Shown: one piece after another, positions 18,902 through 33,775 of the stretch
Layout of the letters: every line of letters begins with the position of its first letter
Numbering within the stretch: position 1 is the first letter of the stretch
Notes under the pieces: generated by a model
What the model saw: the letters and a program-made list of their open reading frames with translations, nothing else
Databases searched by the model: none
What the model was told of the DNA's origin: nothing
From: Pseudooceanicola lipolyticus
GTDB lineage: Bacteria; Pseudomonadota; Alphaproteobacteria; Rhodobacterales; Rhodobacteraceae
DNA: 34,969 nt
NCBI RefSeq assembly: GCF_002786325.1
Contig: NZ_PGTB01000030.1
Span: forward strand, 1 to 34,969
Direction of reading: 5' to 3'
Program-made: the position numbers and the translations under genes

Positions 18902-18913
18902 ACCTTCCCTGTT

Positions 18914-18933: not shown

Positions 18934-19016
18934 TTGCTCTCTGTGGAGCACCATCGCAATTTTTCATCCTGTGTCAGCAGACAAAGAAATCCCGTTCGCT
19001 CAGAAGCGTTTTTTTC

Positions 19017-19045: not shown

Positions 19046-19050
19046 CTAGG

Positions 19051-19115: not shown

Positions 19116-19119
19116 GTTT
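19084..19119 (+). terminator. Intrinsic terminator of the antisense RNA
   Basis: A 10-bp stem, CCCTCGAAAC with GTTTCGGGGG (one G-T pair), closes a TTCG tetraloop and is followed by TTTTCTTTGTTT on the plus strand. The run of T follows only on the plus strand, which fixes the direction as opposite to repABC. Confidence 0.85.
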
Positions 19120-19143
19120 ACCTTTCCTCCTTTCTGCTCGCCC

Positions 19144-20115
19144 TCAGTTGTCATCCTCCGAGGTTACGTTTGTAAACTCGGCAAAGGATTTCTTGATGAT
19201 CTCCGCGAGATTGCCCTCAAGCCAGTTCGCGAATTCAGCGTTTCCACCAGATTTCTTGACCGACAAGGAAAGGCTCCCTCGCCCGGACTTGATAACAACG
19301 CCCTCCATAGGCGTGATTTCTCTCGGACTAACGGGCGCTTTTGCCCCGCGCTTGCGCGCTTCCTTGACCAGCGCCTCCAACCGTTCATCCGAAGTCAACG
19401 CGGCGTTGAACGCGGTCAGCAGTTCGAGCGCAATCTTCTCAGTGAGCTTCCCTTCCAGAAACAGATCCGCCAGGTCGGTCCATCTAGGTCGCCCTGATTT
19501 GGGCGCTGCCCCAATCAGGTCCCCAACTTTGGTCGGGATATTCTGTGTCACCTTGGTGAGATGAGAGTGCCCGGAAGCGGACAGGTTCAAGACTTGACGC
19601 ACGGTAGTGCTGTCATGGCCCGCGGCCTGGATCGCCTCGGCGAAGCGGGCTTTTTCATAGAAAGACAAATTGCGACGCGCGGCGTTCTCAAGCCCCTTGG
19701 CCAACAGAGCCGTGGCGTCATCGACATCCTGGACGTTGGCGCGCACCTTGATGCCCAGCTCTCGACATGCCCTCAAACGGCGACGACCGTAAATCGACTC
19801 GAACCGACCCTCCGCCGATTTGGACCGACGAACCAAGATTGGCACCTGTTGGCCGCCCTCGCGGATACTGTTCTTGAGCGTTTCAAAGCCCTCGCCGTCA
19901 TCTTCTGAGTTTACAGTTGTAAACTCATCCAGCCGGTCCTTGGGCCCCCAGTCATCTATCAGGTTGGGATCAATCTCGCGGATAGATGTGAGAGACCCCT
20001 GCAACGCTCCCAAGGCGGGTGCGCTTGTCTTGGGAGCTTTTTCCGGCGACGAACTACTGGAACGGGCGATGGTGTTGGCGATGCCCGACATATCGCGAAG
20101 CGTCTTGCGTGCCAT
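19144..20115 (-). CDS. repB: Plasmid partition protein RepB (ParB family)
   Basis: A 323-residue ParB/Spo0J-like protein. Conserved boxes: REGGQQVPILVRR (residues 85-97), the CTP/arginine-patch segment YGRRRLRACRELG (109-121), ENAARRNLSFYEKARFAEA (143-161), and a helix-turn-helix near 168-190 (DSTTVRQVLNLSASGHSHL). It should bind parS and load partition complexes with RepA. Start ATG overlaps the repA stop by one base (TAATG). Odd: residues 64-73 (EFTTVNSEDD) and 313-322 (EFTNVTSEDD) are near copies, and both are encoded by DNA resembling the parS palindrome. Confidence 0.93.
   Translation of the reverse strand: MARKTLRDMSGIANTIARSSSSSPEKAPKTSAPALGALQGSLTSIREIDPNLIDDWGPKDRLDEFTTVNSEDDGEGFETLKNSIREGGQQVPILVRRSKSAEGRFESIYGRRRLRACRELGIKVRANVQDVDDATALLAKGLENAARRNLSFYEKARFAEAIQAAGHDSTTVRQVLNLSASGHSHLTKVTQNIPTKVGDLIGAAPKSGRPRWTDLADLFLEGKLTEKIALELLTAFNAALTSDERLEALVKEARKRGAKAPVSPREITPMEGVVIKSGRGSLSLSVKKSGGNAEFANWLEGNLAEIIKKSFAEFTNVTSEDDN
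19150..19179 (-). repeat. parS-like segment in repB, copy 2 (degenerate)
   Basis: Encodes EFTNVTSEDD just before the repB stop. Minus-strand GTTTACA half-site is intact, while the other half is altered. It shares 25 of 30 bases with the copy at 19897-19926, so a duplication followed by drift is likely. Confidence 0.6.
19897..19926 (-). repeat. parS-like segment in repB, copy 1
   Basis: Contains GTTTACAGTTGTAAAC on the plus strand (19909-19924), one base off the perfect palindrome upstream of repA. It encodes EFTTVNSEDD. It shares 25 of 30 bases with the segment at 19150-19179. Confidence 0.75.
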
Positions 20116-21299
20116 TATTTACGCCTCCAAGACTGATGAATCATGGCTTCCACCTCGTGGCCGACGGCATCCATCGACCCTTTCGCGCGGTCGTAGGTCG
20201 CACGCGTCATCTCCGAGCGTACGACCTCGTAGATAGACTGCTTGAGCATGGTCGCGTCGCCTATGGCGGTACTTTTGACGGCAGTTGCGGACATGACCCT
20301 GTCCTGGAACAGTGCCCGCATGAATGAGGTTAACTGTTGGGAGGGCACATCCGTTGGCTCATCACGAGTGATCAGGAACTTGAAGTGATCGTATTGCAGA
20401 GTCGCTCCTGCATCCTCGATCACCCCCATATAGGCGCCGGCAAGCTCCAGGAACTGCGCTGTCGACGAGACGTCCAGCATCGACGGGGTTAGGGGGACGA
20501 TCAGGGAGCTCGCGGCAGCCATACCTGCAATGGTTAGAAACCCGAGTTGCGGCGGACTATCCATCAGGACCAGATCGAACTCATCCTCGACTTGCGACAA
20601 CGCGTTGCGAATGCGTGTGAAGAAGGGCTGATCTGGGTTCGAATGCACCGCGGATTCAGTCTCAAACTCTGACAGCAAGAGGCGCGCTGGCGCAATCGAG
20701 AGCCCGGGGAAATAAGTTGGCACCACGACATCCGCCATGCTGACGGGCTCATCGTAGCGGATCGCGTCATAGACCGTCAGCCCATCAAACTCGATCTCTG
20801 GACTGATGCCGCACATAGAGGTGAGCGACCCCTGGGGGTCCAGGTCTACGACCAGAACGCGATAGCCCCGAAGCGCAAAATAATGCGCCAAGTGGATGCT
20901 TGTCGTGCTCTTGCTGCTTCCGCCCTTGAAGTTCATCAACTGCCAAACCTGCAGCTTCTCATCCCCGGAACGCCGCGGAAGGTAGCGCCCCTTTTTACGA
21001 GAGGACTTTTCGAGAATTTCGCGCGCGTCCCAGATTTCCTGCGCCGTATAATAACGCCGTCCACCGCGCACATCCTCGGGCTCGGGGATCGTACCTTCAG
21101 CATGCAGCTTTCGCATGAACTGACCGGAGACCCCCAGCAGATCGGCGGCTTCGGGCGCTGAAAATGAGCGTAGCGTTTTCGTGCTATCTGGTGCAAAAGC
21201 AGACAGAAGATGCTCTCTGATGGCTGCGTTCAGCCGCTCAGAAATGTCTGTCGCAAGCGCCGAAGGCTTCTCGTTTGCCAGTGGTGTCACAGGAATCAT
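20115..21299 (-). CDS. repA: Plasmid partition ATPase RepA (ParA family)
   Basis: The 394-residue protein has a MerR-like DNA-binding part (FSAPEAADLLGVSGQFMRKL, about residues 46-65), then the ParA ATPase: deviant Walker A KGGSSKST (125-132), VVDLDPQGS (150-158) and VLMDSPPQLGFLTIAG. RepA drives plasmid segregation with RepB/parS and represses the repABC promoter. It heads the operon. The Shine-Dalgarno is weak (GGGG 8 bases before the ATG) and those G residues can pair with CCCC in the leader. The gene for RepB follows with one-base overlap. Confidence 0.94.
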   Translation of the reverse strand: MIPVTPLANEKPSALATDISERLNAAIREHLLSAFAPDSTKTLRSFSAPEAADLLGVSGQFMRKLHAEGTIPEPEDVRGGRRYYTAQEIWDAREILEKSSRKKGRYLPRRSGDEKLQVWQLMNFKGGSSKSTTSIHLAHYFALRGYRVLVVDLDPQGSLTSMCGISPEIEFDGLTVYDAIRYDEPVSMADVVVPTYFPGLSIAPARLLLSEFETESAVHSNPDQPFFTRIRNALSQVEDEFDLVLMDSPPQLGFLTIAGMAAASSLIVPLTPSMLDVSSTAQFLELAGAYMGVIEDAGATLQYDHFKFLITRDEPTDVPSQQLTSFMRALFQDRVMSATAVKSTAIGDATMLKQSIYEVVRSEMTRATYDRAKGSMDAVGHEVEAMIHQSWRRK

Positions 21300-22014: not shown

Positions 22015-22986
22015 ATGATGGCCCGAACGTTCGGAAATGATGACTTGCGAAACCTTCAGTCCACGACCACGCGCCAATACAGCATTCTAGTTCACCTGCT
22101 GACAGTCAAAAGCGTCACCGAGACCGCGCATCATTTCGAGACGTCACAGCCGGCTGTCAGCCGGTTGCTGGCAGAGATGCGGCTTCGCTTTTGTGACGGG
22201 CTGCTGGTTCGCAGCGGCGAGAGAATGGTCATTACCGACCGTGGGCGAGCAATTCGTGCCGAGTTGAGCGCGATCCTGGACCGTCTATCGTGTCTGATCG
22301 AAACCACGGACAGTTTCGAGCCGGAAGCCGCGGACGTGACCTTCACGCTCGGCTTTGCCGATTCCAACATGGTCAGCTTGATCCCTCTGCTCGTGGGCGC
22401 CATCACCGGATCGGCCGCGAAGATCAAACTTCAGTTGCGCACGCTCGACGCCTCTTTGGACGTGGTGAGGGCCCTGGAAAACAGGGATTTGGATGCGGTG
22501 GTTGATTGCGTCACCAAGCACACGCGCGATTCATACGAGACCTTGCGGTATTCATCGCTTGGAACGGATGACGTGGTCTTGCTGGCGCGGAAGGATCATG
22601 CAGTGATCGCGTCGCCGCCGCAGACAAGCGCGGAGTACCTGGCGCTGAAGCATGTTGCCCCTTACCCGGTTGCAAGTTTCGAACTGGGGCCGATAGACGG
22701 CACGCTCCGAGCCTTGAAAAGCGCCCGTCACATCAGCTGCTTTATTCCTGAATACAGCCTGATTCCCAACGTCCTGATCGGGTCGGACTTGGTGTTCACG
22801 ACGTGCCGGCGCTTCGCGGAAGACTATGCGAAGCACTTGCCGTTGGCGGTGGTCCCCGCGCCCGATTTCTTTCCGAGGATGGAATTTCGGATGCTGTGGC
22901 ACGAGGTGACACAAGGCAATCCAGCGACGATCTGGCTGCGACGGCAGATTCAGAATGCCGCAAAAGCAGGCAATTTCGAATTTTGA
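22015..22986 (+). CDS. LysR-family transcriptional regulator
   Basis: The 323-residue protein has a LysR helix-turn-helix at about residues 33-55 (SVTETAHHFETSQPAVSRLLAEMR) followed by DGLLVRSGERMVITDRGRAI, and a periplasmic-binding-like effector domain (FTLGFADSNMVSLIPLLV onwards). GAGGGAG is 6 bases before the ATG, which favours this start over the longer open frame beginning at 21850. It lies directly upstream of, and parallel to, the BMP transporter operon. An activator or repressor responding to the imported compound is the likely role. The ligand is unknown. Confidence 0.9.
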   Translation: MMARTFGNDDLRNLQSTTTRQYSILVHLLTVKSVTETAHHFETSQPAVSRLLAEMRLRFCDGLLVRSGERMVITDRGRAIRAELSAILDRLSCLIETTDSFEPEAADVTFTLGFADSNMVSLIPLLVGAITGSAAKIKLQLRTLDASLDVVRALENRDLDAVVDCVTKHTRDSYETLRYSSLGTDDVVLLARKDHAVIASPPQTSAEYLALKHVAPYPVASFELGPIDGTLRALKSARHISCFIPEYSLIPNVLIGSDLVFTTCRRFAEDYAKHLPLAVVPAPDFFPRMEFRMLWHEVTQGNPATIWLRRQIQNAAKAGNFEF

Positions 22987-23047
22987 TAGTGTCTCAGGTG
23001 TTATTATTTGTGCGATATTGTAACGGAGTGCCCCATATCCGTTTCGA

Positions 23048-23060
23048 TATTCAGTGAATA
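23048..23060. promoter_or_regulatory. T-N11-A palindrome, candidate LysR box
   Basis: TATTCA-G-TGAATA is an exact palindrome with the T-N11-A spacing of LysR-type sites, 81 bp before the BMP binding-protein start and just after the LysR gene. Confidence 0.45.
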
Positions 23061-23140
23061 CGTTCTACGTCATTTCTGCCGGTCTGCTCTGTCCCTAGAA
23101 ACGTTCACCAATTGGACACTGCCGAACACAGGAGAACGAA

Positions 23141-24175
23141 ATGACGAAGTTGGAACTCAACCTAAAGCGCCGTGCGGTCCTGACCGGGCTTGGGGCAGGT
23201 CTTGCCGCAATGACCCTGCCAACAACCCTCTTGGCTGCCTCGCCGCGCAAGGTCGTGCTTTTGATGGCGGGCGGTATTGCCGACGGCGGCTGGAACACGC
23301 TGGCGTTTCGCGGGCTGGAGGAACTGGCGGCGATGGATGGCATCGAGACCGCCTATGTCGAGAACGTCACCCAGGCCCGCGCGCCGGAAATCGCCCGGGG
23401 CTATGCTGATGACGGCTTCGATCTCGTGATCGGGCACGGGTATGAATTCGGTGCTTTGATGGCCGAGATCGCGCCCGAGTATCCCGACCAGTCGTTCTTC
23501 GCCACAACCTACGCCCCAGGCGCAGATATCCCGGCCAACGTGCGCTATGCCGATCTGGCTTACGTCGCCGTGGCATATGCTGCAGGGGCGCTGGCGGCAC
23601 TGATTTCTGAAGAGGGTAGGGCGGTCGGTTTCGTCGGTGGCGGTGACAACCCGACGCAGCAATCGATGGGCCGCGCTTTTGCCGGTGGAGCCGAAGAAAC
23701 CGTTGCGGGCATTAAGGGGCTCGGCATCGTCACCGGTGATTATCACGACGCGGCAAAGGGCAAAGAGGCGGCGCTAACCATGATCGGCAACGGCGCCGAC
23801 GTGATCTGGCATGCCGCCGACGTGACCGGCCTGGGCGCGATTCAGGGGGTGGCCGAATCCGAGGGGGTGAAGGCCCTGGGGTGCTACGCCAACCAAACCT
23901 CGATTGCTCCACAAGAAATCGCCACCAGCTTTGCCATGAACCTCGGTTGGATGGTCGTGCAACTGGGCACAGCCATTGCGAATGGTTCGTTCGTGGGTGG
24001 GGAAGAATGGAAGCCGACCGTGGCCGAAATGTGGTCGGCGGTCTACGGCGAAGGCGACGATGCGGTGCCGGTCAACCCTGACTTGGTGTCCGAAGAATCC
24101 TATGCGGTCTTTACCGAGGTCATGGAAAAACTGTCGTCCGGAGAAATCGACGTGACCCGCTTTCTGCAAGGCTGA
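23141..24175 (+). CDS. BMP-family ABC transporter substrate-binding lipoprotein-like protein
   Basis: The 344-residue protein belongs to the basic-membrane-protein/PnrA family, whose characterised members bind purine nucleosides and related ligands. It has a Tat-like LKRRAVLTGLGAGLAAMTLP leader ending near TLLAASPRK. Family elements include ADGGWNTLAFRGLEEL, VIGHGYEFGALMAEIAPEYPDQ, AGALAALISEEGRAVGFVGG and DVIWHAADVTGLGAIQGVAE. There is no obvious lipobox cysteine, so a soluble periplasmic protein is expected. First gene of the plus-strand catabolic operon. Ligand could be a nucleoside, nucleobase or similar heterocycle. Confidence 0.9.
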   Translation: MTKLELNLKRRAVLTGLGAGLAAMTLPTTLLAASPRKVVLLMAGGIADGGWNTLAFRGLEELAAMDGIETAYVENVTQARAPEIARGYADDGFDLVIGHGYEFGALMAEIAPEYPDQSFFATTYAPGADIPANVRYADLAYVAVAYAAGALAALISEEGRAVGFVGGGDNPTQQSMGRAFAGGAEETVAGIKGLGIVTGDYHDAAKGKEAALTMIGNGADVIWHAADVTGLGAIQGVAESEGVKALGCYANQTSIAPQEIATSFAMNLGWMVVQLGTAIANGSFVGGEEWKPTVAEMWSAVYGEGDDAVPVNPDLVSEESYAVFTEVMEKLSSGEIDVTRFLQG

Positions 24176-24220
24176 CCTGGCGGAGCTTAGACATGCGGCA
24201 CGCTTCCGGTTGGCGGGCGC

Positions 24221-25855
24221 GTGCTGCGGCAGACAAGGCAAGACGGGCGGCGGCCCGGCAGATCGGGGGGCGTCCAATTGGTAGCCTGCGACAAAGGCGT
24301 TTCATCGTCATCGGCGCCGCCGGTGCTTGAGCTTCGCAATATCACCAAGCGTTTTCCCGGCGTGATCGCGAACGATCGGGCCTGCCTGACAGTGGGGGCC
24401 GGCGAAGTACACGCGATCCTTGGGGAAAACGGGGCCGGCAAGAGCACGCTGATGCGCATCCTGTACGGTGCATACCAACCGGACGAAGGTGCGGTATTGA
24501 TCGACGGCGAAGCGCGGCAATTGACTTCGCAACGTCAGGCTATCGCTTGTGGCATCGGCATGATCCACCAGGAATTCATGCTGGTTCAACCGATGACGGT
24601 GGTCGAAAACGTGATCCTTGGGCTGGATGGCGATATCGGCCTGCGCCTGGACGAGGCGGCGCAGCGGATTTCGGCATTGTCCGACCATCATGGATTGGGG
24701 ATCGACCCCCATGCCCGCGTCGCCGACCTGCCGGTCGGTGTGCAGCAGCGTGTCGAGATCCTGAAGCTCTTGTTCCGCGATGCGCGAATTCTGGTGCTGG
24801 ACGAGCCGACGGCGATCCTGACACCGCAGGAGGCGGCTTCACTTCTCGATACATTGCGCAAACTTGCTTTGCAGGGGCGGGCGATCATCATCGTTACGCA
24901 CAAGCTGAACGAGGTAATGGCCGTTGCCGACCGGGTCACAATCATGCGCGACGGGCAGACGGTTCGCAGCATCGACCCGGCGCAAAGCAACGAAGGCGAA
25001 CTTGCCCGCCTGATGGTCGGACGCCCGGTTGGGCGCACTGTCGTTCGCCCCAAAATCCAGCCGGGAGCGAGAATCCTGAGCGTCAATGGCCTGCGCGTGC
25101 TGGGTGCGACCGGAGGCGAGGCGGTGTGCGGCGTGGATCTGACCGTGCGCGAGGGCGAGATCGTCGGAATAGCCGGTGTCGAAGGCAACGGGCAGTCGCA
25201 ACTGGTTGAAGCCATCACCGGGCTCCGCCGCAGTTCTGGCGGATCGGTAATGATGGATGGCCGAAACGTGACCCACGCGACACCGCTTGAGCATGCCCGC
25301 AGGGGGCTGGTCTACGTGCCGGCCGATCGCCGTTATGTCGGCTCGATCGCCGCCCTGGGGATTGACGACAACGCGATGCTGGGCCGGCAGGAGGACTTTA
25401 CCCGCGGCTGGGGCTTGTTCCGGGATCGGCGGCGTATCCGGCGCCATGCACAGGAATTGGTCGAACGGTTCGACGTCAAAACGCCGCACATCCGCTTTCC
25501 GGCCGGCAAGCTGTCCGGGGGAAACCTGCAAAAGGTCATCATGGGGCGCGAGATACTGCGCGACCCGAGGCTCCTGGTGGTCGAACAGCCGACACGCGGA
25601 CTGGATATTGGGGCCATCGAATATATGTGGTCGCAACTTTTGGCGGTACGCGGGCAGGGCAAGGGGGTTCTACTGGTGTCGGCCGAACTGAATGAAATCA
25701 GGAGCTTGGCCGACCGTATTCTCGTCATCCACCGAGGACGTTTCCTTGGCGAGCTGACACCAGAAGACGCGGATGATGAACTTCTTGGTCTGATGATGGC
25801 CGGCATGGCCGCCAAGCCGGGAACCGGGCCGATGCCTGACCGGCCGAGGAACTGA
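24221..25855 (+). CDS. Two-domain ABC importer ATPase (RbsA/NupA-like)
   Basis: Two nucleotide-binding domains in 544 residues. The first has Walker A GENGAGKST (68-76), signature LPVGVQQR (170-177) and Walker B LVLDEP (191-196). The second has a degenerate Walker A GVEGNGQSQ (319-327), LSGGNLQKV (431-439) and VVEQPTRGLD (453-462). This asymmetric layout is normal for RbsA/YufO-type ATPases that work with BMP binding proteins. The start is uncertain: GTG 24221 opens the frame, TTG 24278 has GGGGGG 7 bases upstream, and the conserved part begins near residue 35. It is 45 bp after the binding-protein gene. Confidence 0.9.
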   Translation: MLRQTRQDGRRPGRSGGVQLVACDKGVSSSSAPPVLELRNITKRFPGVIANDRACLTVGAGEVHAILGENGAGKSTLMRILYGAYQPDEGAVLIDGEARQLTSQRQAIACGIGMIHQEFMLVQPMTVVENVILGLDGDIGLRLDEAAQRISALSDHHGLGIDPHARVADLPVGVQQRVEILKLLFRDARILVLDEPTAILTPQEAASLLDTLRKLALQGRAIIIVTHKLNEVMAVADRVTIMRDGQTVRSIDPAQSNEGELARLMVGRPVGRTVVRPKIQPGARILSVNGLRVLGATGGEAVCGVDLTVREGEIVGIAGVEGNGQSQLVEAITGLRRSSGGSVMMDGRNVTHATPLEHARRGLVYVPADRRYVGSIAALGIDDNAMLGRQEDFTRGWGLFRDRRRIRRHAQELVERFDVKTPHIRFPAGKLSGGNLQKVIMGREILRDPRLLVVEQPTRGLDIGAIEYMWSQLLAVRGQGKGVLLVSAELNEIRSLADRILVIHRGRFLGELTPEDADDELLGLMMAGMAAKPGTGPMPDRPRN

Positions 25856-25861
25856 CGATTG

Positions 25862-26965
25862 ATGCCTATACTTAGAAAACGCATGGCGCCCAGCGATACG
25901 CTGCTGACGATCGTCGGCATCAACGCCGTCGTGATGCTTTGCGCCTTGGCGATCGGGGCGATCCTTTTCTTGCCCTATACGGACAACCCGTTCGCCGCAT
26001 ATGCCACGCTGGTTGAATCCAGCCTGGGTTCGTGGCGGGGCATCGGCATCACGCTGAACAGAGCCGCGCCTCTGATCCTGATCGGGCTGGGCACCTGCGT
26101 CGCCTGGCGGTCGGGTTTCGGATACCTGGGGTTCGAAGGCTGCCTGACCATCGGTGCGGCGGGCGCAGCCTGGTATGCGCTGCGCCCTTTCAATGCCGAG
26201 ATCGCCGGTATGGCAGGGTTTCTTGTCTTCCTGGCGGGGGCCATGACCGTCAGCTTTGGCGCGGGGGGGCTTTGGGCCGGCGGCGTCGGCTTTCTACGCA
26301 GCCGTTTCGGTGGCAACGAAGTTCTGATCTCGCTGATGTCGAATTATGTGGCTGCGTTCTTCGTGCAGTACCTCGTGTCCGGTCCGATGCGCGCCGAAGG
26401 CAGCTTGCCTCAGACACCGCGGTTTCCACTTGGCACCTGGCTGCCAACGATCCTGCCAGGGACGCGCGGGCAGGCCTCGATCCTGATCGCGTTGGTGGCG
26501 GTCTTTTTCGTGTGGCTGCTGATGCGGCGGATGCGGCTGGGTTATGAATTGCAGGCCACGGGGCTGAATCCGCAAGCGGCACGGTATGGTGGTATCCAAG
26601 TAGGGGCCCGCTATGTCCTGGCAGCGTTTCTGGCGGGCGGTCTGGGCGCTTTGGCCGGGCTGGTCGAGGTGCTTGGCACGCAGCACCGACTGCTCGACGG
26701 GCTCAGCGGTGGTGTCGGCTTTATCGGTATCGTCGTCGCCCTGCTGGCGCGGCTGAATCCGCTGGCGGTCGTCCCGGTGGCGATCCTATATGCCGCGCTG
26801 TCGGTGGGGGGGGACGCGCTGCAACGGCGGATCGGTGCGCCGACCTCGATCATCTTTATTCTGCAAAGCCTCATCGTGCTGTTCCTCATGGCCAGCGAAT
26901 TGCTGCGGCACTGGACGCTCGACCTGTCAGGGCTGCGTGGCAAGAAAGGAACCGGCAATGTTTGA
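25862..26965 (+). CDS. ABC importer permease, BPD_transp_2 family (NupP-like)
   Basis: A 367-residue membrane protein with about eight to ten hydrophobic spans. Segments such as LILIGLGTCVAWRSGFGYLG, GNEVLISLMSNYVAAFFVQYL and GFIGIVVALLARLNPLAVVPVAI are typical of permeases paired with BMP proteins. GAGGA lies 11 bases before ATG 25862; a TTG one codon earlier is an alternative. It overlaps the next permease by 8 bases. Confidence 0.9.
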   Translation: MPILRKRMAPSDTLLTIVGINAVVMLCALAIGAILFLPYTDNPFAAYATLVESSLGSWRGIGITLNRAAPLILIGLGTCVAWRSGFGYLGFEGCLTIGAAGAAWYALRPFNAEIAGMAGFLVFLAGAMTVSFGAGGLWAGGVGFLRSRFGGNEVLISLMSNYVAAFFVQYLVSGPMRAEGSLPQTPRFPLGTWLPTILPGTRGQASILIALVAVFFVWLLMRRMRLGYELQATGLNPQAARYGGIQVGARYVLAAFLAGGLGALAGLVEVLGTQHRLLDGLSGGVGFIGIVVALLARLNPLAVVPVAILYAALSVGGDALQRRIGAPTSIIFILQSLIVLFLMASELLRHWTLDLSGLRGKKGTGNV

Positions 26966-27896
26966 CGACACGGCATTGATGGCTTTCCTGGTTACCTGGA
27001 TGGCCGCCAGCCTTCGCTTTGCGGGACCGCTGCTGATGGCTGCATTGGGCGAAACCTTTGCCGAGCGCGCGGGCGTTCTGAACGTCGGGATCGAAGGTAC
27101 GTTCCTGATCGGCGCGCTTGTGGCTTTTCTGGCCACGCAAACCAGCGGCATGCCGACGGTCGGCTTTCTGGCGGCATTGGGAGTCGGGGCGCTGGCGAAC
27201 CTATTCCTGGCCTGGATGTATGTGACGGTTGGAGCGAACCAGGTCGTGGTCGGCATCGTCTTCAACATCTTTGCCATCGGGGCCGCCAGCTACGGCTATC
27301 AGTTGGCCGCGGGCGAGGCCGCCACGGCAGAATTGGTTCCGATGTTCCCCAAGCTGGACATTCCCGTCTTGTCGGATGTGCCGGTCATCGGGCAGGTGTT
27401 GTTGTCGCACTCGGTCCTGTTCTACCTGACGCTAGCGCTGATGGTCCTGGCCGATCTGGTCTTGTTTCGTACCCGGTTCGGGCTGAACATCCGAGCCGTC
27501 GGCGAAAATCCACACGCTGCGGCGAATGCGGGCATTTCGGTCTCGCGCATTCGTTATCAGGCCGTGTTGCTGTCGGGGGCCGCGGCAGGTGGGGCAGGGG
27601 CCTATCTGGTATTGGCAGAGGTCGGGCTCTTTCGGGATACGATCGTCGCCGGTCAGGGCTTTATCGCCATGGCCATCGTGATCTTCGGCCGGTGGCGCCC
27701 GCTCTATGCAGCCTTTGCCGCAATGGCCTTCGGCGCGGCCCAGGCGCTGCAACTGTCACTGCAATTGTTCGAGATGAACATACCACCGCAGCTTCTGCTG
27801 TCATTGCCCTACGTGCTGACGATTGTCGCGGTGTCGGGATTGATCGGCCGTGCCAACCAGCCCGGCGCGCTGATGCAACATTACAAGGGAGATTGA
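26958..27896 (+). CDS. ABC importer permease, BPD_transp_2 family (NupQ-like)
   Basis: A 312-residue membrane protein with the family hallmarks GETFAERAGVLNVGIEGTFL near residues 31-50, VGANQVVVGIVFNIFAIG, RAVGENPHAAANAGISVSRI and GFIAMAIVIFGRWRPL. It pairs with the preceding permease to form the importer channel. AAGGA is 7 bases before the ATG, which sits inside the end of the previous gene. The stop is 2 bases before the aminohydrolase start, so one transcript is likely. Confidence 0.92.
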   Translation: MFDDTALMAFLVTWMAASLRFAGPLLMAALGETFAERAGVLNVGIEGTFLIGALVAFLATQTSGMPTVGFLAALGVGALANLFLAWMYVTVGANQVVVGIVFNIFAIGAASYGYQLAAGEAATAELVPMFPKLDIPVLSDVPVIGQVLLSHSVLFYLTLALMVLADLVLFRTRFGLNIRAVGENPHAAANAGISVSRIRYQAVLLSGAAAGGAGAYLVLAEVGLFRDTIVAGQGFIAMAIVIFGRWRPLYAAFAAMAFGAAQALQLSLQLFEMNIPPQLLLSLPYVLTIVAVSGLIGRANQPGALMQHYKGD

Positions 27897-27898
27897 CC

Positions 27899-29290
27899 AT
27901 GAAAGTTCTAACGCATCTTTGCGCCGTGACGATGAACCCAGACAGGGACATCATCGAGGATGCCTGTATCTGTATCGAAGGGGACCGGATCGTCGCCGTT
28001 TGCCCCACCGCCGAAATGCCTGAGCCCTTTCGCACGGCCGAACATGTCGATTGCTCGGGCAAGGTCGTCGTGCCGGGCATGATCAACACGCATACGCACC
28101 TGTTCCAGACCTTGCTGAAGGGTCTAGGCGATGACATGGACCTCAAGAAGTGGTTTTCCTGCATGACCGGTCCTGCAGCCGTGCATCTGACAACCGAGGA
28201 CATGGCCACAGCCGCGCTGCATGGTTGCGTTGAATCGCTGATGTCCGGTGTCACGACACTGGTGGAATACCAATACGTGAACACCCAAGACGACATGATC
28301 GACGCGGTCTACGACAGCTTTGACCAGACCGGCATTCGCGGGTTCGTCTGCCGCGGTTTCATGACGACGGGCGAAGATCATGGCGTGCCGCCGGCCTTGA
28401 TCGAAAAGACCGAGCACGTGATCGAGCATACAAGGGCCGCGGCGCGGCGCCACAACCGGCCCGGTGGCCGGGTGCAGATCGGCATCGCGCCTTGCATGTG
28501 CTGGACGGTCGACCCCGATGCCTATCGGGCGGTGCGCAAACTGGCGGACGAGGAAGGTCTGTTCATCACGGCGCATCTGTCCGAAAATGCCTTTGAAGTC
28601 GAGCGCGCCAAGGAATCCTTTGGCACCACGACAGCCCAGTTCTTTGACGAAATCGGCTTTCTGGGGCCCGACGTTCTGGCTGTGCATTGCGTACATTGCA
28701 ACAGCCGAGACATCCGGTTGATGAAGATGCGCGATGTGAAGGTATCGCACAACCCGTGCAGTATGCTCTACGTCGGGCTCGGCGTCGCTCCGATCCCGGA
28801 AATGCTGGCCGCCGGGCTGACTGTGTCACTGGGCAGCGATGGTCCCGCCAGCAACAACAACCACAGCATCTTTCACGTCATGAAGTTCGCCGCGCTCGTG
28901 CCGAAGGGCGTGCACGAGGATCCAACGATCATGACCGCAGAAAAAGCGTTGGAGATGGCGACAATCGACGGTGCGCGCGCCGTTGGGCTGGAAGATGAAA
29001 TCGGTTCGCTTGAGCCGGGTAAGAAGGCGGACTTGGCCATCATGGACCTGTCCGAAAGCATCTGGGCCACTCCGCTGCATCGCGTGCCTTCGGCCATCGT
29101 CTATTCCGCGCTTGGCCACGAGGTCACCGATGTCATGGTCGACGGGACATTCGTCATCCGCAACCGCCAGCACACCGTGCTGAATATCAAGGAGCTGCGA
29201 GCGGCGTCGCAGAAGGCGGCGGATGGCCTGGCCGGGCGCGCGGGCGTGGACCATTTCAAGACGCGACCGTGGCGTTCGGTAACGGCCTGA
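27899..29290 (+). CDS. TRZ/ATZ-family metal-dependent aminohydrolase (deaminase)
   Basis: A 463-residue amidohydrolase-superfamily enzyme. Metal and catalytic residues visible are H65 and H67 (NTHTHLFQ), H226 and E229 (TAHLSEN), H263 (AVHCVH), H284 (VSHNP) and D314 (LGSDGPASNN). The closest families are s-triazine, guanine, 8-oxoguanine and adenosine-type deaminases (TrzA, AtzB, SsnA, MtaD). Hydrolytic loss of an amino or other leaving group from a heterocyclic ring is expected. The start follows AAGGGAGA and is 2 bases after the permease stop. The linked nucleoside-type importer suggests a nucleobase-like substrate. Exact specificity is not readable. Confidence 0.88.
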   Translation: MKVLTHLCAVTMNPDRDIIEDACICIEGDRIVAVCPTAEMPEPFRTAEHVDCSGKVVVPGMINTHTHLFQTLLKGLGDDMDLKKWFSCMTGPAAVHLTTEDMATAALHGCVESLMSGVTTLVEYQYVNTQDDMIDAVYDSFDQTGIRGFVCRGFMTTGEDHGVPPALIEKTEHVIEHTRAAARRHNRPGGRVQIGIAPCMCWTVDPDAYRAVRKLADEEGLFITAHLSENAFEVERAKESFGTTTAQFFDEIGFLGPDVLAVHCVHCNSRDIRLMKMRDVKVSHNPCSMLYVGLGVAPIPEMLAAGLTVSLGSDGPASNNNHSIFHVMKFAALVPKGVHEDPTIMTAEKALEMATIDGARAVGLEDEIGSLEPGKKADLAIMDLSESIWATPLHRVPSAIVYSALGHEVTDVMVDGTFVIRNRQHTVLNIKELRAASQKAADGLAGRAGVDHFKTRPWRSVTA

Positions 29291-29312
29291 ATACAAGCAT
29301 ATCGGAGATGTC

Positions 29313-30086
29313 ATGCAACGCAACATTGGCCAGTTGACCTGGACCGAGGTCGAGGCGCTCGACCTCGCCAAGGACGGCGCCCTGGTTCTGCCGATCGGGT
29401 CGATCGAACAACATGGGCCCCATCTATCGACCGATTGTGACCTGGTCTTCGCCGACCGCTTTCTTGACCTGGCCCTCGAACGCCTTGACCAGCATACAAA
29501 AGTCTGGCGGTTGCCAATTTTGCCGATCTCGAAGTCGAACGAACACGTCGGCTTTGCCGGAACGTGGTATTTGTCGGCAGAAACCCTGATGGCCACCCTG
29601 CGGGACATTGCCAGATGCGCGGTCAACAACGGATTTCGCAGGCTTGTGCTGTGGAATTGCCATGGCGGCAATCGTGCGCTGCTCGAAGTTGCCGCCCGCG
29701 ATCTGCGCATCGAAACCGGACTGATGACATTCCAGGTGTTTGCCTCAGGCGTAATGCCGGATCCCCTTGATCCGCTCGATGCAAGAGAACCGGTTTATGG
29801 CATTCACGCCGGCGAATGGGAGACAAGCGTCATGCTGGCGCTTGCACCGGATCGCGTTCGACTGGATCGGCGCAATTGCGAATTTCCCAAGTTCAGCTCG
29901 GAGACGCTTGCTCTGGAATTGACTAGCGCTACGGTCGGCTGGACCTCGCGCGATTTCCAGATCTCCGGAACTTGGGGTGACGCGGCCGCGGCGACGACCG
30001 AGCGGGGCCAACAGCGGTTGACGCCCTTGATCGACCGGCTGGCGGCGATCCTGACCGAAATTGCGGGGTTCGAAATGGGGGCCTGA
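29313..30086 (+). CDS. Creatininase-family amidohydrolase
   Basis: The 257-residue product has the creatininase signature: LPIGSIEQHGPHLSTDCD with metal ligands E32, H34 and D43, NCHGGN (H117) and HAGEWETS (165-172). The family opens cyclic amides such as creatinine or acts on formamide groups in cofactor pathways. In this operon, following an aminohydrolase and an importer, ring opening of a deaminated heterocycle is the most natural role, but that is inference. GGAGA precedes the ATG. It is the last plus-strand gene and converges on the amidase. Confidence 0.9.
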   Translation: MQRNIGQLTWTEVEALDLAKDGALVLPIGSIEQHGPHLSTDCDLVFADRFLDLALERLDQHTKVWRLPILPISKSNEHVGFAGTWYLSAETLMATLRDIARCAVNNGFRRLVLWNCHGGNRALLEVAARDLRIETGLMTFQVFASGVMPDPLDPLDAREPVYGIHAGEWETSVMLALAPDRVRLDRRNCEFPKFSSETLALELTSATVGWTSRDFQISGTWGDAAAATTERGQQRLTPLIDRLAAILTEIAGFEMGA

Positions 30087-30096
30087 GACAGGCGCC

Positions 30097-30126
30097 TGCG
30101 CCGCGGACCGTGACGGCCGCGGCGCA
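30097..30126. terminator. Strong hairpin between convergent operons
   Basis: TGCGCCGCGG and CCGCGGCGCA are perfect 10-bp arms, with an inner CCGT-G-ACGG pairing. It lies between the creatininase and amidase stops. No T-run follows on either strand, so termination strength is uncertain. Confidence 0.5.
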
Positions 30127-30146
30127 AACCTGGGATAACGGGGTCT

Positions 30147-31286
30147 TCAGCGGGTGGACTTGGCCATGTCGACCGCCATTGCGATCAATCCCGCGTCGCT
30201 GCCGCGCGGGCCGATCAGTGACAAGCCGATCGGCAATCCGGTCGCCGAGCGCAGCGGGATCGTGACCTGGGGTAACCCGGCGTGACCCGACAGACAGAGT
30301 AGGGTCAGCGCCCGGTTCCGGTAGGCTTCCATGCCCTGACCATCCAGCGTGAGCAGGGGCGCCGGTCCAGGGGCGGTGGGAACCCGTATAATCCCTCCGT
30401 TCAGGGCCGCGTCGATGGCGCCGGTGATTTCGGCCCGCATCGACTGGGCGGCAGAGATGTCTTGTGGTGCAAGCGCCATCGCCCCGGCAAAACGCTCGCG
30501 TACGCCGGGGCCAAAGGCGGGTTCGTGTTCTTTGATCCATGCGCCAAACACCTGCGCGACCTCGGCACCCTGACAGACGCGGAAAGTGGGCAGAAGCGCC
30601 TCGCGCAAGCGAAGCGACAGCAGCGGTGCAGGATCGCCCTGCCGCAACGGCGCCAGCGCAGAGAGTGTTTCGGCATCCGCGAAGTCCCACATGTCGGCGG
30701 GCACACGCGGTTCACCGCGCGGGGGCGCGGCTTCGGGCGCCAGCAATTCGGCCAGATGTTGTAGCGTTGCGCCGTCGCGGGTCATGAAGCCGGGCACATC
30801 GTAGCTGGGGGCCAGGGGCAACAAGCCGCGCGCATCCAGAAGCCCATGCGTCGGTCGCCACCCCCAGAGCCCGCAGAAGGCGGCTGGGATTCGCACCGAT
30901 CCACCGGTGTCGGTGCCCAGTCCGATATCGGCCAGCCCCGCAGCAACGGCCGAGGCCGATCCCGAGGACGACCCGCCTGGCACCCGGCCGGGCCCGGCCG
31001 GGTTCTCCGGCGTACCGTAGCGGGCATTCTGTCCCATCAGGGAATAGGCCAGCTCGTCCATCTGGGTCTTGCCGACCAGGTGCGTACCCAACTTTATCAG
31101 GTGAGAGACCAGGGGCGCCGTGTCCTGCGCGGGGTTGTGGGTGTCGGCCCATTCGGGATTGCCGGCCCCGGTGACATGGCCGGCAATATCGAAGTTGTCC
31201 TTTACCGCCAGCCGCAGGCTGGCCAGCGGTCCAATCCCATCCCCAATTGGCGGATCGAACCTTGTAACGAAGGCATCCGCGCTCAT
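30147..31286 (-). CDS. Amidase-signature hydrolase (HpxY/AtzE-like context)
   Basis: A 379-residue amidase with the Ser-cisSer-Lys triad: K29 (AVKDNFDI), S106 (PGGSSSGSA) and S130 (GTDTGGSVRIPA). It is shorter than allophanate hydrolase AtzF and lacks that enzyme's second domain. It should hydrolyse a linear amide or ureide to ammonia and an acid. It is translationally coupled (ATGA) to the upstream HpxZ-like gene, the same partner found beside HpxY and AtzE amidases in oxalurate and cyanurate pathways. The substrate is therefore likely a small nitrogen-rich acid amide. Confidence 0.88.
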   Translation of the reverse strand: MSADAFVTRFDPPIGDGIGPLASLRLAVKDNFDIAGHVTGAGNPEWADTHNPAQDTAPLVSHLIKLGTHLVGKTQMDELAYSLMGQNARYGTPENPAGPGRVPGGSSSGSASAVAAGLADIGLGTDTGGSVRIPAAFCGLWGWRPTHGLLDARGLLPLAPSYDVPGFMTRDGATLQHLAELLAPEAAPPRGEPRVPADMWDFADAETLSALAPLRQGDPAPLLSLRLREALLPTFRVCQGAEVAQVFGAWIKEHEPAFGPGVRERFAGAMALAPQDISAAQSMRAEITGAIDAALNGGIIRVPTAPGPAPLLTLDGQGMEAYRNRALTLLCLSGHAGLPQVTIPLRSATGLPIGLSLIGPRGSDAGLIAMAVDMAKSTR

Positions 31287-31672
31287 GAGACTTCAGCCAT
31301 CAGCGAGACATGCGCCGAGACGATGCGCCACCCGTCTTCCGTCCTGAGCCAGGTCTGGCTTTGCCGTCCGGTGCGCGTGCTTCCTTCGCGCCGGAATTCC
31401 AAGTTGCAAATGCCCATGTCGTCGCCAAAGGTCACGATTTCGCGGCGGATCACCTGTCGCTGGGGCGAGCCGCCGGTGCGGCCCTTCCGAAATGTGCGGA
31501 TCTCGTCGATGCCATAGAGGTTTTCGCCGACGCCATAACGCAGAACCTGCGGCGTGTCCCAGAACAGCGCGTCCAGCGTGTCGAGGTCATTCGCCATCAG
31601 CGCCGCCTCGTAGGTGTCGCAAGCGATGGTGAGGTCAGAGAGCGGGGCGGCAGCATTCACCTGTCTGGTCAC
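31283..31672 (-). CDS. hpxZ: HpxZ/AtzH-like protein (DUF3225)
   Basis: The 129-residue protein matches the HpxZ/AtzH group of the SnoaL/NTF2-like fold: DTLDALFWDTPQVLRYGVGE, NLYGIDEIRTFRKGR and TWLRTEDGWRIVSAHVSL. In Klebsiella-type hpx clusters it accompanies oxalurate breakdown, and AtzH accompanies cyanurate degradation; its reaction in the oxalurate case is not settled. I take GTG 31672, which overlaps the upstream stop as GTGA and has GGAG 8 bases before it. Earlier in-frame codons lie in the preceding gene. It overlaps the amidase start by 4 bases. Confidence 0.85.
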   Translation of the reverse strand: MTRQVNAAAPLSDLTIACDTYEAALMANDLDTLDALFWDTPQVLRYGVGENLYGIDEIRTFRKGRTGGSPQRQVIRREIVTFGDDMGICNLEFRREGSTRTGRQSQTWLRTEDGWRIVSAHVSLMAEVS

Positions 31673-32457
31673 GTATCTTTCTCCATGGCGGTCAGTATGG
31701 CCTCGCCCGAGGTCACGAAACCGAAGCATTGACGTACATTGTAAAGCGTGGCCTGCATGCAGAAGGCCGGCGAGGTGGTCGCGCTGCAATCCTCCAGCAG
31801 GAGGACGTCGTAGCCGAGGAAATTGGCGTCATGTAGGGAACAGGCGACGCATTGGTCGGCGTTCACCCCGGCAAACAGCACGGTCCGCACGTCGAGGTTG
31901 CGCAGGATGCTGTCCAACTCGGTATCCTGGAAGCCCGACATGCGGAATTTGGACACCGCGATATCATTGGCCTCCGGGCTCAGTTCCGCGACCACGGAGG
32001 CGGCCCAGCTGCCCTCTTCAAGTACATGCGCGCCGTTGGAGGGCAGGGGTTTCCCGATGCCGGTCGAACGCCCGTCCGGGTCGTAGACATGCAGCACCGC
32101 AGGCGGAAGGTTCATCCGGTCGGGACGGTTGCCCCAGTTCAGCCAGATCACCGGCACGCCAGCGGCGCGCAAGGCCGGTAGAAGTCTTTGGAGCGGAGCA
32201 ATCGGCGCCCGCGCGGGTTCGACATCAACGCCGATATGCGCGAGCCAGCCATCGCGGTGGCAAAAGTCGTTCTGCATGTCGACCACGATGATCGCTGTTT
32301 GCGACAGGTCAAAGGTCACCCGACGCGCCTGGTCGACGACCGTTACCGGCCGGCTCTGCGCCGGCTGGCGGGTCATGTCGACGCTATCCGCGTTGACCCG
32401 CCACGCATTGCGCGGCGAGGCGCCAAGGCTGATCTGGTCGTTTTCGGGATCAGACAT
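31669..32457 (-). CDS. Isochorismatase-like cysteine hydrolase (RutB/biuret hydrolase-like)
   Basis: A 262-residue cysteine hydrolase with triad D60 (VVDMQNDF), K170 (AVSKFRMSGF) and C203 (GVNADQCVACSLHDA). DTELDSILRNLDVRTVLFAG and YDVLLLEDCSATTS are typical of ureidoacrylate amidohydrolase RutB, biuret hydrolase and N-carbamoylsarcosine amidase. It should cleave a carbamoyl or ureido group with release of ammonia and carbon dioxide. A 40-residue N-terminal extension precedes the core. ATG 32457 overlaps the cupin gene by 8 bases, and the stop overlaps hpxZ (GTGA). Confidence 0.88.
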   Translation of the reverse strand: MSDPENDQISLGASPRNAWRVNADSVDMTRQPAQSRPVTVVDQARRVTFDLSQTAIIVVDMQNDFCHRDGWLAHIGVDVEPARAPIAPLQRLLPALRAAGVPVIWLNWGNRPDRMNLPPAVLHVYDPDGRSTGIGKPLPSNGAHVLEEGSWAASVVAELSPEANDIAVSKFRMSGFQDTELDSILRNLDVRTVLFAGVNADQCVACSLHDANFLGYDVLLLEDCSATTSPAFCMQATLYNVRQCFGFVTSGEAILTAMEKDT

Positions 32458-32884
32458 TGGCTTTTCCGGTAAGCACGGCGATATCTTCAGCGTCCAGCGC
32501 AACCCGCTGGCCAGAGCGGATCAGCTGGGAAAAGTCTTGGTCCGGGGTCATCACCGTCAGAGTATACAATTTACCGGCCCCGGTGTTTTCGACCACGTGC
32601 ACCGACCCCGGGTTCAACAAAAGCGCGTCACCCGTTTTGATCGGCAGGCTGGTGCCGTCGGACGAGGCGATGCCCTCGCCGGATATCACGTAGAAGAATT
32701 CATGCGCATCCGAATGGCTGTTCGGCGGTGTCTTGCCGTCCTTCGTGAAGATTTCGACGACATAAATGTTGTTTGAGGTCGAGTTCTGCGGATCGAACAG
32801 AGTGACGAAATAGTTCGTATCGTCTTCGGCGATCTTCCAGACCTCGGCTTGTTCGATCTGCTCGAAGGAGAAGGACGGTGTCAT
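32450..32884 (-). CDS. Single-domain cupin protein
   Basis: The 144-residue protein has a cupin barrel with motif 1 PPNSHSDAHEFFYVISGEG (metal candidates H, H and E) and motif 2 LLLNPGSVHVVENTG (H). Such small cupins are ureidoglycolate/ureidoglycine-type enzymes, metal-dependent isomerases or sensors; the sequence alone does not choose. It is the second gene of a tight operon, coupled by ATGA to a 39-codon ORF and by an 8-base overlap to the hydrolase. It probably handles an intermediate of the same pathway. Confidence 0.85.
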   Translation of the reverse strand: MTPSFSFEQIEQAEVWKIAEDDTNYFVTLFDPQNSTSNNIYVVEIFTKDGKTPPNSHSDAHEFFYVISGEGIASSDGTSLPIKTGDALLLNPGSVHVVENTGAGKLYTLTVMTPDQDFSQLIRSGQRVALDAEDIAVLTGKANV

Positions 32885-33000
32885 GCCAGAGTGCCCCCGA
32901 ACCGAGAGCCGGACAATTCTTGATCGGCCAGCCCGGGAAGGGGTGCTTCAACACTCAACGGGACGGCGCGGTGTCCGGTTTGGAACTCAGGCTTTGTCAT
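32881..33000 (-). CDS. 39-residue ORF translationally coupled to the cupin
   Basis: Begins MTKPEFQTGHRAVPL and ends GSRFGGTLA. Its stop overlaps the cupin start as ATGA, and GGGAAAG lies just upstream of its ATG, so translation is plausible. It has no membrane segment or signal peptide and I recognise no family. It is too short and unlike AtzG/HpxX, the small partner usually found with such amidases. It may be a leader peptide that couples or gates expression of the operon, or a small functional subunit. Confidence 0.55.
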   Translation of the reverse strand: MTKPEFQTGHRAVPLSVEAPLPGLADQELSGSRFGGTLA

Positions 33001-33079: not shown

Positions 33080-33100
33080 ATTGATACGCGTGATATCAAT
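33080..33100. promoter_or_regulatory. Inverted repeat upstream of the minus-strand operon
   Basis: ATTGATA and TATCAAT are exact 7-bp arms spaced 7 bases, 80 bp before the 39-codon ORF. It is a good operator candidate for the minus-strand operon, perhaps for the LysR protein encoded at 22015, but it is not the same sequence as the palindrome at 23048. Confidence 0.45.
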
Positions 33101-33210
33101 ACAGATATAGTTGCGGACGGCACCATTCACCCTGGCCGGCAAGCCGCCGGTTGCACCGTTCAGACGCATATCGAACGATACCCTTGCCGTGTCGTTGGAA
33201 CGCTCTGGCC

Positions 33211-33775
33211 GGCACCGTCAAGTTAACGCGTCGGCCTGCGTCACGTGCAACAGGGCGGCAAGACTGACACTCGCCTGTATCACCGCCATCGGTTCCCGCC
33301 CGAGGTGATTTCCGATGCCGTCTGGCTGTATTTTGGTTCCCCGTTAGCCTGCGGATGGTCGAAAACCTGCTGGCCGAGCGTGGCAACATCCGTGTCGCAG
33401 CAGACGGTGCGGGCGTGGGCCGAAAAATACGGATAAGCTTCGGTCATACCCGATGGCGAAACGCGAGATCATGCCGAGGGGGAGAGCATCGCGCGCGGGC
33501 CTGAACAACAGGGCCGAAAACTCGCATCAACCGTCACGACGGCGCAAGCGCATCATGAAACGCGTCAAATCACTTCGACACTTGCAGCGCTTCGTTTCCA
33601 TCCATGACCCGATTGCCAATCCGTTCGATCTCCCCCGACATGAAATGACATCCGGGGATTTTCGCGAAGGCCGCGCCACGGCCATGGATGCGTGACGCGA
33701 CATCGCAAATCTCGGAGCCGCGTGAAAATCGCACTCAGCCCCAAGTTGGTCCCGGTTGGTTAAGTTTACAGCGCC
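33211..33775 (+). mobile_element. IS6-family insertion sequence, internally deleted relic
   Basis: The ends GGCACCGTCAAGTTAAC (33211-33227) and, inverted, GGCGCTGTAAACTTAAC (33759-33775) match at 13 of 17 bases. Between them lie the start and end of an IS6-type transposase without its catalytic middle, in about 565 bp rather than the usual 0.8 kb. Flanks GCTCTGGC (33202-33209) and GCGCTGGC (33777-33784) match at 7 of 8 bases and may be a worn 8-bp target duplication. Confidence 0.75.
33272..33695 (+). pseudogene. IS6-family transposase pseudogene
   Basis: The first part reads HRHRFPPEVISDAVWLYF, then shifts frame into FPVSLRMVENLLAERGN, then shifts back to VSQQTVRAWAEKYG and a stop: the conserved N-terminal helix-turn-helix of IS6 transposases with two frameshifts. 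From 33453 a second piece carries the C-terminus (NNRAENSHQPSRRRKR, MKRVKSLRHLQRFVSIHDPI, NPFDLPRHEMTSGDFR). The DDE catalytic core between the two pieces is absent. It cannot make active transposase. Confidence 0.8.

Follow-up and report, generated by a model that had tools for sequence, protein, structure and literature searches.

A LysR-linked pair of operons for probable N-heterocycle hydrolysis on a repABC-type contig of Pseudooceanicola lipolyticus

Which compound would be taken up and broken down by a set of genes that recalls the oxalurate, cyanurate and Rut pathways, and do the two operons that hold these genes belong together? The question is raised by a contig of Pseudooceanicola lipolyticus (NZ_PGTB01000030.1, assembly GCF_002786325.1), which was analysed over its entire 34,969 bases and is called the window here. 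Eleven genes lie in it in two convergent runs with 60 bp between them, seven on the plus strand in the order LysR-type regulator, BMP-family binding protein, ABC ATPase, two permeases, TRZ/ATZ-type amidohydrolase (TRZ enzyme) and creatininase-family hydrolase, and four on the minus strand, which encode an amidase, an HpxZ/AtzH-like protein, an isochorismatase-family hydrolase and a small cupin (Table 1). An earlier note on this DNA had named all of these families, in two convergent operons with one LysR regulator, and the Pfam matches and coordinates agree with it. We consider it very likely that the two operons are regulated and work together as one unit, and highly probable, if slightly less so, that this system serves the hydrolytic catabolism of an N-heterocycle or ureide. 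With middling confidence we read it more fully as a LysR-controlled unit on a repABC-type plasmid that imports and hydrolyses a planar N-heterocycle with amino or imino substituents, the likeliest candidates being a purine-type base and an oxidised purine fragment.

Linkage of the two operons

Exactly two copies of the pattern ATATC-N6-GATAT are present in the window, one before each operon, at 90 bp from the start of the BMP gene and, at the far end, at 92 bp from the start of a small frame (33000) and 208 bp from that of the cupin gene, so that the regulatory part of operon 2 extends to 33108. In 100 shuffles of the window the mean count of this dyad was 0.01, and two copies were seen in none (0/100). 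The identical dyad stands in the gap between the LysR and BMP genes of Oricola (locus L005) and Cognatishimia (L009), and a version with one mismatch precedes the BMP gene of Tritonibacter (L006); a match of this quality also arose in 28 of 200 shuffled L006 sequences. All three loci have LysR proteins with 57–67% identity to that of the window. The exact dyad is found in five of the 75 scanned loci (L005, L009, L016, L042 and L046), where L016 is a copy of part of the window and the dyads of L042 and L046 fall within called frames. The whole genome contains ten copies, and one of the pattern read backwards. Among the comparisons of upstream regions the dyad pattern alone stands out: at k = 12, 15 and 18 a k-mer comparison of the two upstream regions did not rise above 20 shuffles, and at k = 21 one stretch in the start-codon region (16/21) beat the best of 20 shuffles (15) by one. 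A promoter scan found 2 candidates with 3.5 expected from shuffles, none above the shuffles, and a terminator scan found 15 against 12.1 in shuffles.

The clearest example of the two operons as one is provided by Pantoea. In all five Pantoea plasmids (5/5) a single run contains the BMP, ABC, two permease, cupin, isochorismatase and TRZ genes, with LysR divergent from it and the creatininase-family gene beyond LysR. For L010 and L011, identity to the window is 52–68% for the BMP protein, ABC ATPase, permeases, cupin, isochorismatase-family hydrolase and TRZ enzyme, and 39–40% for the creatininase-family protein. A window-type TRZ gene, sought at 1e-80 among 72,556 plasmids, was found in those five Pantoea records only, and in the phylum sample 2 of 398 genomes have a TRZ orthologue, namely the source genome and the Pantoea-like G1003, both of which also have the isochorismatase gene. 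The evidence for close linkage of the TRZ gene thus comes from a single outside lineage, to which L008, L059 and L061 add TRZ genes that lie at a distance. In Pararobbsia (L008) cupin and isochorismatase genes are divergent from a run of LysR, ABC, two permease, creatininase, BMP and TRZ genes, and Roseomonas mucosa (L012) has an isochorismatase-cupin-creatininase run together with a different ABC importer, an amidase and HpxZ.

Recurrence was counted over 29 other loci, comprising 18 places from a class sample (385 genomes, 16 of them, the source genome included, with an isochorismatase match at 1e-70; the source-genome paralogue L048 is among the places), four from a phylum sample (398 genomes, five with a match at 1e-85, again including the source genome), Pararobbsia L008, which came from a creatininase-anchored scan and was hence found through its creatininase, and six of 22 plasmid records (one of five from Pantoea, one of five from Rhizobium, one of seven from Paraburkholderia, and those of Roseomonas, Streptomyces and Variovorax); Rubrobacter and Deinococcus plasmid records were left out of the count. 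Neighbours were called by tblastn at 1e-8 with few queries, the presence of TRZ being judged by the window TRZ alone, and absences are weaker in L008, L039, L048 and L051 because the flank is short on one side. In 13 of the 29 the isochorismatase-family gene has a cupin gene no more than 1.5 kb away, and a creatininase gene lies within 10 kb in 8/13 of these cupin-linked loci versus 0/16 of those without cupin (Fisher p = 3e-4); when L060, a near relative of Pantoea L010, is set aside, the figures are 7/12 versus 0/16 (Fisher 7e-4).

A second dyad tells a similar story in other loci. L059 has another LysR-type gene, 63% identical to that of Pantoea, and GTTGCCT-N3-AGGCAAC is present there upstream of the creatininase gene (6233) and between cupin and LysR (10900), from which the creatininase and cupin-isochorismatase genes appear to be co-regulated in L059 too. 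Each of the six Pantoea-type loci read (L010, at 6885, L011, L060, L063, L064 and L065) has the slightly shorter GTTGCCT-N3-AGGCA between its LysR and BMP genes; the window has it nowhere.

Several observations weigh against a single unit. The dyad pattern was defined after the upstream regions had been compared, which makes the window statistic post hoc. The half made up of LysR, BMP, ABC, two permease and creatininase genes occurs in L005, L006 and L009 without cupin or isochorismatase in the available flanks; the TRZ position is occupied there by an AMP-binding ligase (L005 8467–9981, L006 6510–8021, L009 8493–10004, that of L006 placed by its likeness to the L005 ligase), and the ligases of L005 and L009 score below the NCBIfam cut-offs among the matches listed. 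The creatininase-family genes next to these ligases show 72–78% identity, and the importer type is the same. On the Pseudosulfitobacter plasmid L058 a 5-FTHF cyclo-ligase family gene (9055–9825) lies between LysR and the same BMP clade. From the other side, the isochorismatase gene is without a creatininase gene within 10 kb in 21 of the 29 loci, and in L013, L015 and L062 it is accompanied by a different BMP importer, an amidase, TetR and ggt, with no creatininase.

The halves found alone and these 21 loci are what would be expected of two unrelated operons placed side by side on a plasmid. We regard this as improbable, given the shared dyad, the Pantoea fusion, the divergent neighbours in Pararobbsia and the recurrence with cupin. 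Because of the dyad, the fusion and the recurrence of cupin, RutB-like hydrolase and creatininase-family genes in other lineages, a single unit is preferred, and the view of the earlier note that the operons belong together is upheld. Its expectation that the families would be found jointly elsewhere held for the core, which occurs together in other lineages, and did not hold for the full eleven-gene set, which was seen in the window only. Amidase, HpxZ, TRZ and BMP genes together are likewise confined to the window, L057 being without TRZ and L061 without BMP (its TRZ is distant). In a Paraburkholderia grouping the isochorismatase gene is found with BMP, amidase, AtzE and HpxZ genes, and a ggt-family gene is present in the relatives L013, L015, L042 and L062. 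The module is one of mix-and-match, and relatives of parts of the regulon span the Alpha-, Beta- and Gammaproteobacteria. The creatininase-family gene was found at 1e-50 in the source genome only among 295 genomes of the family, and the idea that phages carry it was dropped, as 50,697 records gave no match at 1e-30.

Table 1. Positions of the replication genes, the two operons and the predicted regulatory sites in the window
Feature	Position	Strand	Evidence or remark
RepC	17612-18967	-	part of repABC-type module
RepB/ParB	19147-20115	-	part of repABC-type module
ParA-like	20118-21299	-	part of repABC-type module
LysR-type regulator	22015-22986	+	Pfam HTH_1 and LysR_substrate; 67% identity to LysR of the Oricola locus
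Probable LysR-type site before BMP (predicted), dyad ATATC-N6-GATAT	23035-23050		pattern scan
BMP-family substrate-binding protein	23141-24175	+	PF02608
ABC transporter ATPase, two ABC domains	~24299-25855 (start uncertain, frame opens 24221)	+	PF00005, two stretches
Permease 1	25862-26965	+	PF02653
Permease 2	~26958-27896 (start inferred)	+	PF02653
TRZ/ATZ-type amidohydrolase (deaminase family)	27899-29290	+	PF01979; catalytic motifs present
Creatininase-family metallohydrolase	29313-30086	+	PF02633, 212 bits
Amidase-signature hydrolase, PRK08310 type	30147-31286	-	PF01425; NCBIfam NF006169 422 bits, cut-off 391
HpxZ/AtzH-like protein	31283-~31672 (start inferred)	-	PF11533; NF033625 163 bits, cut-off 135
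Isochorismatase-family, RutB-like cysteine hydrolase	31669-32457	-	PF00857
Small cupin	32450-32884	-	PF07883
39-codon open frame, doubtful gene, may lead operon 2	32881-33000	-	start 92 bp from dyad; no convincing relative among fetched loci
Probable LysR-type site before operon 2 (predicted), dyad ATATC-N6-GATAT	33093-33108		pattern scan

Families and conserved residues

Creatininase is among the nearest solved structures of the creatininase-family protein, in which Glu34, His36, Asp45 and His120 of the Pseudomonas putida enzyme have their equivalents. Tyr121, Glu122, Trp154 and Trp174 of that enzyme are aligned to Gly, Gly, Phe and Ile, in an alignment that is gapped around 154–174. The protein scores 83.7 bits with the creatininase model TIGR04448 (cut-off 235) and higher, at 113.5 bits, with the MftE model, below its cut-off of 172. 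A true creatininase was considered and rejected on the missing specific residues and the TIGR04448 score. Ring opening by this protein can be no more than proposed, since the creatininase-specific residues are absent. The TRZ protein has the motifs of its family and passes no NCBIfam cut-off among 25 listed of 62 matched families, with 305.5 bits against a cut-off of 532 for the 8-oxoguanine deaminase model NF006055.

In the BMP protein the residues with which AtzT makes polar contacts to guanine, Ser97, Glu165, Asn218 and Asn220, are replaced by Gly, Thr, Asp and Thr, and the stacking residues Tyr45 and Trp194 by Trp and Tyr, both still aromatic. An importer with the guanine/hydroxyatrazine pocket of AtzT was rejected on the four replaced contacts. 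The equivalents Trp45, Thr165 and Tyr194 are shared by seven of seven importers, those of the window, Pantoea, Oricola, Tritonibacter, Cognatishimia, Pararobbsia and Pseudosulfitobacter, and the Asp218 equivalent by six of them; the common pocket suggests that the ligand is probably the same, or a similar one, whichever enzyme set the importer lies beside.

The isochorismatase-family protein retains an Asp-Lys-Cys triad (Asp60, Lys170 and Cys203), and its best solved-structure match is RutB; with the RutB model TIGR03614 it scores 140.3 bits, against a cut-off of 377.95. Variants of BiuH at Lys145 are reported to have been effectively inactive (PMC5806882). At this position, which is also that of TrtA Lys132, the window protein has Met; Lys is present in 0 of 32 aligned clade members, the window included, and each of the 13 cupin-linked loci has Met. 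The reading as a biuret or triuret hydrolase was rejected for want of this lysine; the BiuH model gives 125 bits (cut-off 370). Another candidate feature, a conserved carboxylate-binding Arg at the position of BiuH Gln215, is present in the window and was dropped because many relatives have Gln or Lys. Beside the isochorismatase-family gene a CocE/S15 peptidase-family hydrolase is encoded in L012 (17452–19107), L045 (10514–12181) and L061 (10779–12422). Contig C35 of the source genome (L048, 2150–8817) has a further isochorismatase-family gene, of 47% identity, in the company of ABC/permease genes, a TetR-like gene and a BMP-like match.

The HpxZ/AtzH-like protein scores above the HpxZ equivalog cut-off and, in an alignment with 6bjt counted by hand, keeps the equivalents of AtzH Tyr22, Arg46 and Arg73. 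Tyr22 and Arg46 are reported to be required for catalysis in AtzH, for which the proposed reaction is 1,3-dicarboxyurea to allophanate (PMC6219798); the product of TrtA is reported to be carboxybiuret, which is N-carboxylated (PMC7948467). Together these two steps may offer a chemical reason for the pairing of a ureide hydrolase with HpxZ. The adjacent amidase, which passes the PRK08310 model, reaches 188 bits with the AtzE model (cut-off 461), and no separate AtzG-type frame was found among the overlapping amidase, HpxZ and isochorismatase genes.

In the comparisons with biuret hydrolase, RutB, creatininase, 8-oxoguanine deaminase and AtzT, the distinguishing features that were tested are missing from the window proteins, and we therefore take the terms 'ring hydrolase' and 'nucleoside importer' as labels of family only; the nucleoside-type importer of the earlier note, whose pocket differs from that of AtzT, is to be read in this way too. 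Its scheme of deamination, ring opening, ureide and amide cleavage stands in so far as the families point to an N-heterocycle or ureide that is broken down by hydrolysis, and lacks support at ring opening, for the residues given above. In the route that we propose, an N-heterocycle would be imported by the BMP/ABC system and its ring C–NH2 or C=NH converted to C=O by the TRZ enzyme; a cyclic amide or formamide would then be hydrolysed by the creatininase-family metalloenzyme, the RutB-like cysteine hydrolase would free ammonia from the exposed ureide and leave an N-carboxylate, this would be removed by the HpxZ/AtzH-like protein, and the last amide would be cut by the amidase. The gene set, its recurrence, the shared dyad and the conserved catalytic residues are supported by the data; every reaction, their order and the substrate are suggested by the families.

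Known pathways and candidate substrates

The island appears to be a new version of the ureide and N-heterocycle catabolic clusters, with a layout nearest that of the cyanuric-acid locus of pADP-1, which likewise has LysR, a run of BMP, ABC, two permease and amidohydrolase genes, and an adjoining operon with an AtzH/HpxZ protein. Identities to pADP-1 are 29% for BMP, 39% for ABC, 34–38% for the permeases and 48% for AtzH, whereas its amidohydrolase and the window TRZ are too unlike to be matched by blastp at 1e-3; unlike pADP-1, the window cluster has no AtzD, AtzG, full AtzE or AtzF, and it has in addition the cupin, isochorismatase-family and creatininase-family genes. The Hpx (oxalurate) cluster is reported to join ggt/hpxW with AtzG-, AtzE- and AtzH-type genes (PMC6219798). 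It shares with the window an HpxZ protein and an adjoining amidase-signature enzyme, but the window cluster has neither hpxW nor an AtzG- or AtzE-type gene, and its amidase is of PRK08310 type. With the Rut pathway the window has in common the RutB match and the conserved triad, but RutA was unmatched among the scanned window frames.

Apart from HpxZ/AtzH as a protein family, the features tested would place the island in none of the characterised pathways examined; the earlier note had described it as resembling the oxalurate, cyanurate and Rut pathways and matching none of them. The absences that were named there, of allantoinase, cyanuric acid hydrolase, RutA and HpxW, are confirmed to the extent that none has a Pfam match among the larger window frames; allantoinase and RutA were searched for in the window only. 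Elsewhere in the source genome there are gamma-glutamyltransferase-family (HpxW-type) matches and, above cut-off, allophanate hydrolase matches; AtzD gave none, a weak result since no control genome gave a signal either. No characterised pathway that joins this gene set was found in the open-licence literature.

A purine-type substrate is our first choice, though we think it somewhat less likely to be right than wrong. This reading rests on gene company rather than on direct evidence. In one stretch, L061 has genes for an NMT1 binding protein, a 2-oxoglutarate (2OG) dioxygenase, a Rieske oxygenase, a deaminase, an MFS transporter, a porin, the isochorismatase-family hydrolase, the cupin, an S15 peptidase-family protein, an ABC ATPase and permease, a FAD_binding_4 oxidase, the creatininase-family protein, a second NMT1 protein, HpxZ and an amidase. 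Its deaminase is 57% identical to that of L059, where a Rieske gene, a PRK12393-type deaminase (642 bits, cut-off 543), an NMT1 importer, a FAD oxidase and the creatininase, isochorismatase and cupin genes are found. The neighbours of the xanthine/urate riboswitch (NMT1 motif) are reported to include NMT1, 2OG, Rieske and PRK12393-type genes, and genes for degradation of oxidised purines are reported not to have been observed among these riboswitch-linked sets (PMC7373994). A purine-type substrate is favoured because L059 and L061 share gene types with these sets, namely NMT1, Rieske and PRK12393-type genes in both and the 2OG dioxygenase in L061 only.

In contrast to those sets, a xanthine riboswitch was sought at the clusters as direct evidence and found at none of them. 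RF03054 was present in 2 of 25 genomes or records and beside no cluster, that of G1003 lying on the contig of the cluster at about 136 kb and that of G956 on another contig, and the only matches in Rfam scans of 20 sources, among them the window, were four tRNAs. The window TRZ belongs to another subfamily, with 26–31% identity to PRK12393-type deaminases; no Rieske gene is among the window frames scanned with Pfam, and the 2OG dioxygenase of the window is 20 kb away. The missing riboswitch, the low TRZ identity and the lack of a Rieske gene among the scanned frames count against the purine assignment. A more specific form of it, a uricase-independent hydrolytic route for oxidised purines that would proceed through the TRZ deaminase, the creatininase-family enzyme and the new RutB-like clade with the cupin, then HpxZ and the amidase, is unlikely; uricase had no match in the source genome, in a search whose controls were positive in 2 of 14.

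N-carbamoylsarcosine amidase removes a carbamoyl group, and on this analogy a substrate of creatinine or hydantoin type can be drawn up. A 2-imino-imidazolidinone, either creatinine-like or formed by oxidation of guanine, would be deaminated by the TRZ enzyme to a hydantoin; this would be opened by the creatininase-family enzyme, after which the isochorismatase-family enzyme would take off the carbamoyl group. For this the minimal set of Pantoea (importer, TRZ, creatininase-family, isochorismatase-family and cupin genes) would suffice, and the structural kinship with creatininase fits; the missing creatininase-specific residues and the low TIGR04448 score do not, and HpxZ and the amidase would have no obvious task, so that we give this reading a small share of the probability. 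Slightly smaller still is that of a pteridine or flavin fragment, where a pterin, lumazine or uracil-fused ring would be imported, deaminated and opened before cleavage of the ureide and the amide, in the manner of LumH, LumI and LumM on 7-carboxylumichrome. The reported order of the lumichrome pathway matches: ring opening, ureide hydrolysis (24-kDa) and amide-type hydrolysis (52-kDa) (PMC12746152). The BMP clade is also found with the 5-FTHF cyclo-ligase family gene, but neither the scanned window frames nor the annotated relatives include an enzyme recognisable as specific to pterins or flavins.

Very improbable, finally, is a biuret/triuret or cyanurate-type pathway, in which the RutB-like enzyme would be a biuret or triuret hydrolase that feeds the allophanate hydrolase of the genome: the trtA/biuH clusters of nitrifiers are reported to have BMP importers, and an AtzH-type protein is named with the TrtA, TrtB, BiuH and AtzF pathway (PMC12625717), on pADP-1 atzDGEHF is accompanied by LysR and a BMP importer, and the window too combines an isochorismatase-family hydrolase with a BMP importer, but it has Met for Lys145, a low BiuH score, no AtzD match in the weak search, no AtzG or AtzE in the cluster, and the extra TRZ, creatininase-family and cupin genes.

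Genomic setting and meaning

The setting of the unit is a plasmid or chromid, to judge from the repABC-type replication and partition module (17612–21299) directly upstream of the island. The window is one entire contig of a draft assembly (5.23 Mb, 439 contigs, contamination 5.68%), on which account its membership in the source genome is an assumption. Adjoining operon 2, a short frame (33245–33436) resembles the start of an IS6-type transposase and is, we presume, the remnant of an insertion sequence. A possible second N-catabolic stretch (724–10104) encodes an inosine-uridine-type nucleoside hydrolase, a 2OG-Fe(II) dioxygenase (30–36% identical to the dioxygenases of L042, L061 and L007), ABC importer genes and a GntR regulator, together with CT_C_D and CT_A_B proteins, which are presumably related to 5-oxoprolinase or urea carboxylase. 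Between it and the replication genes (11902–17143) lie genes for an AcrB-type RND efflux pump, an HlyD-type adaptor and a siderophore-interacting protein.

What the unit offers is a way of tying proteins that carry family-only labels (creatininase family, cysteine hydrolase, cupin, HpxZ, PRK08310 amidase and BMP importer) into one testable regulon, in which the BMP protein is a direct handle on the substrate. Should the substrate be a hydantoin or pteridine, a function would be gained for this group of 'creatininase family' proteins. Should it be an oxidised purine, the unit would suggest what follows the purine-oxidation genes beside xanthine riboswitches, and the uricase-independent route, if true, would supply the downstream steps that are missing from the NMT1/Rieske/2OG/PRK12393 gene sets in L061 and L059.

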